Assembly: GCA_022564935.1 (NCBI GenBank)
Contig: JADFKM010000028.1
Coordinates: forward strand, 1-25,444
Direction of reading: 5' to 3'
Length of the DNA stretch: 25,444 bases
DNA from: Candidatus Dadabacteria bacterium
GTDB taxonomy: Bacteria > Desulfobacterota_D > UBA1144 > Nemesobacterales > JADFKM01
Position numbers and translations under genes: made by a program. Within the stretch, counting starts at the first letter, position 1. The number at the start of each line of letters is the position of its first letter. The notes under the pieces are model-generated. The model ran no database searches and was not told where the DNA came from. It was given only the letters and a program-made list of their open reading frames with translations. Shown piece after piece: positions 9,351-25,444 of this stretch.

Positions 9351-10055
9351 CTACATAACGCCGCCTTGAGGCATAATCACTACTTCTTCGGTCATCGATT
9401 CAGGGGGCTGTGTGTAGATATTGAGTATCATATCGGCTATTACGCCGGGCGCAGTCATAGCTGATGTGTCCCATTCGCCCTCAAGGGCGCCCCATATCGG
9501 GGTGTCTGTGGGCCCGGGCAGTATGGACGTCACCTTTATGCCGCTTGAGCGAATTTCTTCTCTAAGTGCGTTTGTAAACCCCAGGAGGCCCCATTTAGAG
9601 GCGCAATAGGCGGCCCAGTTCGCAAACCCAGTTTTAGCAGCGATTGAGCAGAGGTTGAAGATGTGCGAGCCTGAGCGCATGTGGGGGAGGGCCGATTTCG
9701 TGACCAGAAAGGCCCCCGTGAGGTTTGTCCTTATGACCTCTTCCCATTTATTGATATCTGTTGAGGTGACCGGATTGGTGTAGGCTACCCCCGCGTTGTT
9801 GACAACGACATTTATAGTTCCCGTGATCTCGGAGGCTTTTACGATGAACGACTCGACTTCGGCGGCGTTTCCCACATCGCACCGCTCGGCGAGGGCCGCT
9901 CCGCCCGCGGCCAGTATTTCCGTCCTCACGCGACTGAGCTCGTCAGGTGTGCGGGAGCAGATCACAACGGTCGCTGCACGTTTTGCAAACCGGAGCGCCG
10001 TTTCTCTGCCGATCCCCCTTCCGGCTCCGGTTACCACGACCACATGGTCTTTCAT
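9351..10055 (-). CDS. Short-chain dehydrogenase, probably sepiapterin-reductase-like
   Basis: This 234-residue classical SDR has the nucleotide loop VTGAGRGIGRE (residues 8-18), NNAG (86-89), catalytic Ser137 and the YxxxK pair Tyr150/Lys154. Arg35 after strand 2 (ICSRT) suggests NADPH rather than NADH. The start at 10055 is chosen because the Rossmann fold begins there and the ATG overlaps the folE stop in ATGA. A longer frame reaching 10178 only adds antisense-like Arg/Glu-rich sequence from folE. In an operon after two PTPS genes and GTP cyclohydrolase I, the natural role is reduction of 6-pyruvoyl-tetrahydropterin to a biopterin-type cofactor. That role is inferred from context; the SDR fold alone would not reveal the substrate. 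Confidence 0.85.
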   Translation of the reverse strand: MKDHVVVVTGAGRGIGRETALRFAKRAATVVICSRTPDELSRVRTEILAAGGAALAERCDVGNAAEVESFIVKASEITGTINVVVNNAGVAYTNPVTSTDINKWEEVIRTNLTGAFLVTKSALPHMRSGSHIFNLCSIAAKTGFANWAAYCASKWGLLGFTNALREEIRSSGIKVTSILPGPTDTPIWGALEGEWDTSAMTAPGVIADMILNIYTQPPESMTEEVVIMPQGGVM

Positions 10056-10702
10056 AGCGGCTTTTTTATCAGGCTGAGGAACTCCATCCTGGTTCTCTCG
10101 TCCTTCTTGAACACACCTTTCATGGAGCTTGTGAGCATGTTGGCTTCGGCCTTCTTCACCCCCCTCATCGCCACGCACAGGTGGTAGCCTTCGACCACAA
10201 CGGCTACGCCCTTGGGGTTGAGGGCGTCGTTCAGCAGGACGGCTATCTGTTTGGTCATCCTCTCCTGCACCTGCAGCCTCATGGAAAACATCTCGACGAT
10301 TCTTGGGATTTTACTCAGGCCTATGATTTTTCCGTTCGGCACGTAGGCCACATGGCATTTGCCGAAGAACGGCAGAAGGTGGTGCTCGCACAGGCTGTAG
10401 TACTCTATGTCCCTGACTATCACCATTTCGTCGTATTCTTCTTCGAATATGGCGTCGTTTATAAGCTCGCCCGGCTCTATTCTGTACCCCGAAGTGAGCT
10501 CCCGGTACATGCTGCTGATTCTTGACGGTGTTTTGATGAGTCCCCTCCTGTCTGGGTCTTCCCCTATTTGGATCAGGATTTCCCTTACTGCATCCTCGAC
10601 GTTCATTTCGCCCGCTGAATCCCTGCCGTCGTGAATGGCGTTAAGATCGTGGGTCTCCTCGATGGTTTTGGCGGCGGGTTTGCCGGTTGACTCATCGTCC
10701 AT
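10052..10702 (-). CDS. folE: GTP cyclohydrolase I
   Basis: This 216-residue enzyme converts GTP to 7,8-dihydroneopterin triphosphate, the entry to folate, biopterin and queuosine synthesis. The zinc ligands are all present: Cys105 and His108 in YYSLCEHHLLPF, and Cys176 in GYHLCVAMRGV. GKIIGLSKIPRIVEMFSMRLQVQERMT and the C-terminal TSSMKGVF...TRMEFLSL complete the family pattern. The N-terminal ~33 residues are poorly conserved and acidic. The start at 10702 overlaps the upstream PTPS gene by 11 bp, and its stop overlaps the SDR start by 4 bp. Its place among PTPS and SDR genes points to biopterin rather than folate supply as its main job, though it could serve both. Confidence 0.95.
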   Translation of the reverse strand: MDDESTGKPAAKTIEETHDLNAIHDGRDSAGEMNVEDAVREILIQIGEDPDRRGLIKTPSRISSMYRELTSGYRIEPGELINDAIFEEEYDEMVIVRDIEYYSLCEHHLLPFFGKCHVAYVPNGKIIGLSKIPRIVEMFSMRLQVQERMTKQIAVLLNDALNPKGVAVVVEGYHLCVAMRGVKKAEANMLTSSMKGVFKKDERTRMEFLSLIKKPL

Positions 10703-11150
10703 GCCGTCTCACCCCTTGTGGTTGAGAGTTTTCGAAGTACTCAAAGTAGTTCTTCGGGGTCTCCCACAGCTTCAAGTGGGTGAGTTTTGCCCCGTCCAGT
10801 TTGTTTATTTTGGGCTCGAGCCGGGTCCAGATGTATTTGACTATCAACTCTCCAGAGGGCTGGTTCTCTCTAAAGAACGGGACCTCGATGTCGAGCCTTT
10901 TGTGGTCAAGCTCTTCGATAATTCCGTTCATTAAATCATTAAGCTCCCCGAGGTTGATTACCATGCCCGTCTCAGGGCAGATAACGCCCGACACCTTAAC
11001 CTCGACCGAGTAATCGTGACCGTGGCCCAACTCGTTTGTGCATTTGCCGAATATTTCCCAGTTTTCCTCCGGCGTGAATTTTTTATTGTGGAGCCTGTGG
11101 CCGGCGCTGAAGCGATAAACCTTTGTCAGTGAACAGTGCTCTCGGCTCAA
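10692..11150 (-). CDS. 6-pyruvoyl-tetrahydropterin synthase family protein, paralogue 1
   Basis: This 152-residue COG0720 protein has zinc ligands His18 (AGHRL), His43 and His45, catalytic Cys37 in CTNELGHGH, the Asp82-His83 pair (LDHKRL) and the pterin-anchoring Glu130 (LWETP). The C-x5-HGH spacing is that of mammalian PTPS, not the C-x3-HGH of QueD. The segment aligned with TTEN of PTPS reads PSGE (98-101), unlike its neighbour paralogue. It probably eliminates triphosphate from dihydroneopterin triphosphate to give 6-pyruvoyl-tetrahydropterin. The start is TTG at 11150, overlapping the previous stop as TTGA, with GGAGAG just upstream; no ATG or GTG is available near the start of the fold. 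A Gln/Arg-rich tail follows the domain. Confidence 0.85.
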   Translation of the reverse strand: MSREHCSLTKVYRFSAGHRLHNKKFTPEENWEIFGKCTNELGHGHDYSVEVKVSGVICPETGMVINLGELNDLMNGIIEELDHKRLDIEVPFFRENQPSGELIVKYIWTRLEPKINKLDGAKLTHLKLWETPKNYFEYFENSQPQGVRRHGR

Positions 11151-11572
11151 CTCTCTCTCCAGTACTCGACATACAGCTCGGGGGTCTCGTAGAGCCTGAC
11201 TTTGTAAAGGGCGCAGTCGGCGTTTTCAATGATCCGTACCTCTATGAGCTCCCACAGAGCCTTTGCTATGTTTTCCGTAGTAGGAATGGTGTGTTTGAAA
11301 CGGGGGTTGTCCTCATTTAGGTACTTGTGGTCGAAGTCCGCCAGCACGTCCATCAAGATGGGTTTCAGGTCGTAGAGGTTCATGATCATGCCGGTGTCGG
11401 GATGAGGCTCGCCCTGGAGGGTGACTTCGAGCACGTAGTTATGGCCGTGACCGTAGGGACTTGTGCATTTCCCGAACACTCGTCTGTTTTTTTCTTCCGT
11501 CCAATTTGGGTTCCAGTAGCGGTGAGATGCCGCAAATGTGACCTGTTTTGTGAGCAGCGTTGTGTGTTTCAC
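11147..11572 (-). CDS. 6-pyruvoyl-tetrahydropterin synthase family protein, paralogue 2
   Basis: This is the first gene of the pterin operon, 141 residues. It has all PTPS positions: His17 (ASHRY), Cys36 in CTSPYGHGH with His42 and His44, Asp81-His82 (FDHKYL), the PTTENIA motif (97-103) and Glu129 (LYETP). The C-x5-HGH spacing again follows PTPS rather than QueD. Compared with paralogue 1 it keeps the canonical TTEN segment, so it is the more likely genuine 6-pyruvoyl-tetrahydropterin synthase. The start is GTG at 11572 with AGGA 6 nt upstream. The DUF4175 operon begins on the opposite strand 118 bp away. Confidence 0.88.
   Translation of the reverse strand: MKHTTLLTKQVTFAASHRYWNPNWTEEKNRRVFGKCTSPYGHGHNYVLEVTLQGEPHPDTGMIMNLYDLKPILMDVLADFDHKYLNEDNPRFKHTIPTTENIAKALWELIEVRIIENADCALYKVRLYETPELYVEYWRES
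11155..11160 (-). promoter_or_regulatory. Shine-Dalgarno site supporting the TTG start of PTPS paralogue 1
   Basis: GGAGAG on the minus strand lies 4-6 nt before the TTG at 11150, inside the end of the upstream PTPS gene. It supports translation from TTG, coupled through the TTGA overlap. Confidence 0.6.
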
Positions 11573-24238: not shown

Positions 24239-24724
24239 ATGATCAAGGCACGTTTAAGCGTATCGATCGCCTTATTAGTGATCGTAACCGACCAGCTTAC
24301 AAAGTTCCTAATACGCACTAACCTCGCCCTTCACGAAAAGATCCGGGTGCTCCCGTTTTTAGATATAGTGCACTATCAAAACAGCGGCGCTGCCTTCGGG
24401 ATTCTGAACTCACTCGATGAGCGTCTCAGGATGGGCTTTTTTGTATTTGTGCTTATTGTTGCGGTGGTGGTTCTCGTAGCCTTGATGAGAAAGGCCTCTG
24501 AAGATAACAAACTTCTTATTTCAGCCCTGTCGATGATATTGGGGGGAGCGATAGGGAATTCGATGGACAGGATCTATGCCGGGTCTGTGACCGATTTTCT
24601 CGACCTGCACTGGTTTGGACACCAGAAGCTCCACTGGGCGGCATTCAACATTTCGGATTGCGCCATCACAGTAGGGGTGGCAATTGTCTTGTACGACACT
24701 TTCCGGTCTGCGAGGGCAGGGTAG
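24239..24724 (+). CDS. lspA: Lipoprotein signal peptidase (signal peptidase II)
   Basis: This 161-residue inner-membrane aspartyl protease cleaves signal peptides of lipid-modified prolipoproteins. It has four predicted membrane helices and all family motifs: VTDQLTKFLI (residues 16-25), NSGAAFGIL (48-56), GGAIGNSMDRI (102-112) and the catalytic dyad Asp119 (GSVTDFLDLH) and Asp140 (AAFNISDCAI). The length is normal. Its substrates here would include BamD and the NTF2-like lipoprotein. It is followed 3 bp later by riboflavin synthase, so the two are probably cotranscribed. The ileS gene often found before lspA is absent. Confidence 0.96.
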   Translation: MIKARLSVSIALLVIVTDQLTKFLIRTNLALHEKIRVLPFLDIVHYQNSGAAFGILNSLDERLRMGFFVFVLIVAVVVLVALMRKASEDNKLLISALSMILGGAIGNSMDRIYAGSVTDFLDLHWFGHQKLHWAAFNISDCAITVGVAIVLYDTFRSARAG

Positions 24725-24727
24725 CCT

Positions 24728-25051
24728 ATGTTTACAGGGATTGTAGAGTGCGTGGGTACGGTGAAGGCCGTCAAGGCCGGGTCGGCCGATTCAGTGTTTA
24801 CCATTTCGCCCGCCGCAATCGAGCTCTCCGGCGTTAGCGCAGGCGAAAGCATTTCCGTAAGCGGGGTGTGCCTAACCGTCACGTCGATAACGCCCGATTC
24901 GTTCACTGTGGACGCTTCGCATGAGACCCTCGCCCGCACCACTCTATCGAGCCTTAAAAACGGCAGCAGGGTGAATCTGGAAATGGCGCTACAGGCCGGC
25001 GGGAGGATGGGGGGACACATCGTCAACGGCCACGTGGACGGAGTCGGCACG
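24728..25051 (+). CDS. ribE: Riboflavin synthase alpha chain, C-terminal part cut by a chimeric join
   Basis: Riboflavin synthase joins two lumazine molecules into riboflavin using two similar lumazine-binding repeats. This frame starts with the family hallmark MFTGIVECVGTV, then GVCLTV (near residue 60), DASHETLARTTL and ALQAGGRMGGHIVNGHVDGVGT, which opens the second repeat. At about residue 105-109 the homology ends within VGTI, and the frame continues into enoyl-CoA hydratase. About half of the enzyme (second repeat) is therefore missing. The ATG at 24728 is 3 bp after the lspA stop. The gene is probably intact in the source genome. Confidence 0.9.
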
Positions 25052-25054
25052 ATC
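25043..25054 (+). other. Chimeric junction, riboflavin synthase to enoyl-CoA hydratase
   Basis: GTCGGCACGATC encodes VGTI, which fits both the riboflavin synthase motif (HVDGVGTI) and the start of the hydratase strand (VGTIRLDRP). The two sources may share these bases, which explains an in-frame switch at a short identical stretch. Confidence 0.6.
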
Positions 25055-25444
25055 CGGCTGGACCGGCCCAAGATGAACGCGCTGAACCAGCAGGTCCAGG
25101 AGGAGATCCGGGCCGCGGCGCAGGAGGCGACCGAGCGCGACGACGTACGCGCCGTCGTGGTGTACGGCGGCGAGCGGGTCTTCGCCGCCGGCGCCGACAT
25201 CAAGGAGATGGCGGAGATGTCGTACGCGGACATGGGCGCCCGCTCCGGCGGCCTGCAGTCCTCGCTGACCGCCGTCGCCCGCATCCCCAAGCCCGTCGTG
25301 GCCGCGGTCACCGGCTACGCCCTCGGCGGCGGGTGCGAGCTCGCGCTCTGCGCCGACGTGCGTATCGCCGCCGACAACGCGACGCTCGGCCAGCCCGAGA
25401 TCCTGCTCGGCATCATCCCCGGGGCCGGCGGCACCCAGCGGCTC
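25055..25444 (+). CDS. Actinobacterial enoyl-CoA hydratase fragment (foreign DNA, runs off the end)
   Basis: From residue ~110 of the open frame the product is a crotonase-family protein: RLDRPKMNALN, FAAGADIKEMAEMSYADM (oxyanion hole), TGYALGGGCELALCADVRIA and LGQPEILLGIIPGAGGTQRL (catalytic Glu kept), where the window ends. The family match and wording are those of streptomycete and related enoyl-CoA hydratases. Of the 130 codons here only GTA and CGT do not end in G or C, in sharp contrast to the mixed third positions of lspA and ribE next to it. The gene lacks its true start and its C-terminal third. It is a foreign or misjoined piece, unrelated to the intact crotonase gene at 4471-5250. 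Confidence 0.9.

Follow-up and report, generated by a model that had tools for sequence, protein, structure and literature searches.

Contig C18 of assembly G000 ends in an open reading frame that begins as riboflavin synthase (RibE) and continues as enoyl-CoA hydratase. This raises the question of whether the frame is a gene fusion, a site of recent recombination, or a join made in the laboratory or in the computer. The stretch of DNA analysed here (25,444 nt, hereafter the window) is the whole of contig C18 (G000:C18:1-25444), so base 25444 is the true end of the contig and not merely that of the window. The assembly comprises 1.99 Mb in 104 contigs, with 88.6% completeness and 0.91% reported contamination. 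The features around the join are listed in Table 1.

Apart from the join, the window carries a GTP cyclohydrolase I-like gene that adjoins two adjacent 6-pyruvoyl-tetrahydropterin-synthase-like paralogues at 10052-11572 on the minus strand, all named by eye from their translations.

Table 1. Features at the 3′ end of contig C18 (window coordinates)
Feature	Position	Strand	Basis
lspA (signal peptidase II), genuinely of the host	24239..24724	+	ORF; gene order as in relatives
Host riboflavin synthase (ribE) 5′ half, covering the first lumazine-binding repeat and the beginning of the second as far as HVDGVG	24728..25048	+	PF00677; relatives' identity
Junction zone GACGGAGTCGGC (Asp-Gly-Val-Gly), 12 bases that fit either parent	25037-25048	+	Identity to both parent locus sets
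Foreign actinobacterial enoyl-CoA hydratase 5′ part, cut by contig end	25037..25444	+	PF00378 positions 4-140 of 251
End of contig C18, assembly G000	25444..25444	.	Window = whole contig

One open frame holds parts of two genes

The frame at 24728-25444 spans 239 aa and runs off the contig end. A switch from riboflavin synthase to enoyl-CoA hydratase within this frame had been claimed in the preliminary description, and the claim holds: the ORF is uninterrupted, and Pfam places Lum_binding (PF00677) at residues 3-87 followed by ECH_1 (PF00378) at residues 104-239. The described abrupt shift to nearly all G/C at third codon positions is equally evident, as third-position GC rises from 0.72 over the first 109 codons to 0.985 (128/130) over the remaining ones.

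We compared each part with the family to which it belongs. The ribE models align to residues 1-124, with scores below the model cut-offs. Riboflavin synthase (RibE, TIGR00187) consists of two PF00677 repeats; residues 1-107 correspond to an ordinary member with an intact N-terminal repeat, but the second repeat is cut off after HVDGVG. A second lumazine-binding repeat was not found, as PF00677 gave a single match both in the 239-aa frame and in the whole assembly. Residues 104-239 align with Nocardioidaceae enoyl-CoA hydratases (PF00378; best NCBIfam model PRK05862) from profile position 4 at up to 91% identity, but this tail has neither a native start nor the C-terminal half. The match ends at position 140 of the 251 in the profile, and thus a complete crotonase domain (~250 aa) is not present in the frame.

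Could the 239-aa open frame encode a functional fusion of riboflavin synthase and enoyl-CoA hydratase? Riboflavin synthase requires both lumazine-binding repeats, whereas here the second one is cut near its start. The hydratase is represented by roughly half its length, codon usage changes at the join, and the fusion is found in no relative. These observations make a functional fusion protein vanishingly improbable in spite of the open frame.

The two parts originate from different lineages

Separate searches of the two parts, a check proposed in the preliminary description, led to Actinobacteria for the tail and to the order of the host for the ribE half. Residues 1-108 share 45-65% aa identity with RibE from other families of this order. 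The tail shares 90-91% aa identity with the best enoyl-CoA hydratases of Nocardioides/Nocardioidaceae, versus ~77-81% with those of Streptomyces; at the nucleotide level, its identity to the best Nocardioidaceae is ~86%, and the highest value obtained is 87%. The hydratase had been called GC-rich and streptomycete-like; it is indeed actinobacterial and GC-rich, but the Nocardioidaceae (Nocardioides, Marmoricola, Kribbella) are nearer kin than Streptomyces. In terms of composition, measured as 4th-order Markov log-odds per base, the tail scores 0.162, inside the range of the Nocardioidaceae controls (0.09-0.18), and the maximum of the window before 24700 is -0.05.

A tail so clearly foreign might be expected if the entire contig were a contaminant placed in the wrong bin. 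However, the ribE half and the gene order agree with those of relatives in the host's order, the order TPR gene, lspA, ribE being common to the host and the relatives L085, L087 and L088. The composition of the first 24.7 kb of C18 fits the remaining assembly, and the foreign part amounts to the last ~400 bases only. Misbinning of the whole contig is therefore extremely unlikely.

The rest of the foreign hydratase is absent from the bin, where a PF00378 search detected no C-terminal half and all other matches begin at profile position 2-5; contig C95 terminates in the N-terminal part of a different enoyl-CoA hydratase. As no other contig of the bin holds the remainder, the bin does not supply the second parent, a point against an artificial join. 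A plasmid donor was considered for the tail and is not indicated, the best listed plasmid records showing only 67-77% nucleotide identity.

The join falls on a short sequence compatible with both genes

To either side of the join, sequence identity changes within a few bases. Mean identity to actinobacterial hydratase loci is 0.25 before 25037, rises to 0.74 at 25037 and stays at 0.74-0.93 just downstream, and identity to the ribE loci of order relatives is 0.78 immediately before 25049, 0.45 from there on and 0.11 from 25055 on. The overlap of the ribE part and the hydratase part is thus limited to GACGGAGTCGGC. The blastn alignments to 24990-25100 stop at 25047-25049 in 17 relatives, two relatives are identical to the window at every base of 25028-25047, and the Kribbella locus L053 carries the exact 12 bases of GACGGAGTCGGC. 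A short shared stretch had been described at 25043-25054; such a stretch exists, but the identity profiles and the blastn ends place it ~6 bases upstream. The true shared stretch could exceed 12 bases, since the intact gene of neither parent strain is in hand.

Relatives lack the join and suggest the true continuation

The same fusion in a related genome had been named as an observation that would speak against a chimera. The join is absent from 56 other genomes of the class, and an alignment crossing the junction was obtained only in the genome's own sequence (57 searched, own included). The ribE gene was matched in all but two of 40 genomes, mostly in frames of 205-225 aa and with the second repeat detected in most, and relatives in the order carry a complete ribE. 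A 415-aa frame around ribE in G007 was rejected as a natural fusion; there, ribE itself is otherwise normal and the frame simply stays open on its upstream side.

Of the 19 relatives checked, 18 have the shikimate kinase gene (aroK) 3′ of ribE on the same strand; in 15 of these, the distance between the start of ribE and the GFMGAGK-type motif of aroK is 656-686 nt. The sole aroK match in the assembly is C48:4440-4931 on a contig of 4944 bases, and the aroK frame, read from the broken end of C48, starts after the first few codons (KKLSLNIFLVGFMGAGK). Given the gene order of the relatives and the break within the first codons of aroK, C48 is likely the true neighbour of the ribE fragment, ~310 bases beyond the break. 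When the reversed C48 is set after the ribE fragment, ~310 nt are left unassembled, which is the size of the missing second half of ribE. This half was not found elsewhere in the assembly by searches with the C-terminal half from a relative and with PF00677.

These data also bear on real recombination, in which a recently acquired fragment of an actinobacterial enoyl-CoA hydratase gene would have integrated in ribE and broken it, with the loss of riboflavin synthesis. The join does not interrupt the frame, and such a loss is conceivable in that ribH (PF00885) and ribB (PF00926) were also undetected in the whole assembly. However, acquired DNA should return to host sequence, whereas here the contig ends; the usual neighbour aroK begins at another broken contig end, and similar joins occur at other contig ends. 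The absence of ribH says little when the gene is present in 18/18 good relatives and assembly completeness reaches only 88.6%. It fits incompleteness for the same reason, and both ribH and ribB are probably missing because the assembly is incomplete. We regard recombination in the living cell as very unlikely.

The fusion is best read as an artificial join

Taken together, the origin of the two parts in two lineages, the relatives without the fusion, the location of aroK at the broken end of another contig and the other chimeric ends agree with the artificial chimera initially proposed. We put the probability at about 96% that the riboflavin synthase-enoyl-CoA hydratase 'fusion' was created artificially at the end of the contig, through an assembly or library error, and is not a real gene. 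The host contig should then stop inside ribE at ~25048, with ~310 bases missing between this point and the truncated aroK start on C48. Attached to the ribE end, via the 12 bases of GACGGAGTCGGC that both genes could share, would be ~400 bases from an enoyl-CoA hydratase gene of Nocardioidaceae type. The source of the join may be the amplification of the library or, alternatively, a step of assembly, merging or gap filling in which short overlaps were accepted. An overlap of 12 bases is below the word sizes normal for de Bruijn assemblers, which somewhat favours chimeric fragments, or else merging or gap filling at a later stage. The reading frame kept across the C18 join counts against a chimera, as a random join is expected to keep it in ~1/6 of cases; the shared DGVG codons may explain why it is kept.

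Inter-species chimeric contigs in metagenome assemblies likewise combine two distant lineages in one contig at a single join point. In contrast to these, the foreign pieces in G000 are short (~0.3-5 kb) and lie at contig ends, and the reported contamination is low. The GUNC tool (PMC8201837) was built to detect chimerism. The value of the present case is only that of a warning: a spurious fusion of this kind would be recorded in protein databases as if it were a new domain architecture.

Other contig ends of the assembly

We fetched 204 contig ends of the assembly, leaving out C102 and C103, and scored 198 of them; the ends of C1, C4 and C8 are mostly N. Among the scored ends, those of C51, C18, C74, C10, C58 and C98 stood out as GC-rich. 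The 5′ end of C51 is a second chimeric end and the clearest of the other foreign-looking tails. Its GC content is ~0.67 across the first ~5.3 kb and ~0.5 beyond, and this region (C51:1-5300, L198) holds sdhA/sdhB-like genes together with aldehyde dehydrogenase coding sequence that is connected in frame with a CBS-domain gene of the host. The ORF at the join encodes two CBS domains and then, in frame, an aldehyde dehydrogenase without its N-terminal half. The closest relatives in the order of the host align to the CBS part only, up to residue 124-125, and the dehydrogenase part shares ~70% identity with records from Rhizobium and Azospirillum.

Two further ends are probably chimeric. The start of C74 (C74:1-736, L201) contains a dehydrogenase/ketoreductase-like frame that terminates in the C-terminus of an enoyl-CoA hydratase, and the last ~550 bases of C56 (L239) encode a secreted-protein-like start followed in frame by the C-terminal portion of a short-chain dehydrogenase. 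The 3′ ends of C10, C58 and C85 and the 5′ ends of C98 and C40 are GC-rich over 0.26-1.5 kb and foreign-looking by composition; they are candidates, as they were judged by composition and gene content only.

With several foreign-looking ends, contig-end chimerism recurs in this assembly despite the 0.91% of reported contamination, and contig ends should be checked before gene fusion or gene transfer is claimed. In a small number of joins, partly picked by eye, the four that were read closely (C18, C51, C74 and C56) keep the reading frame, above the expectation of 1/6.
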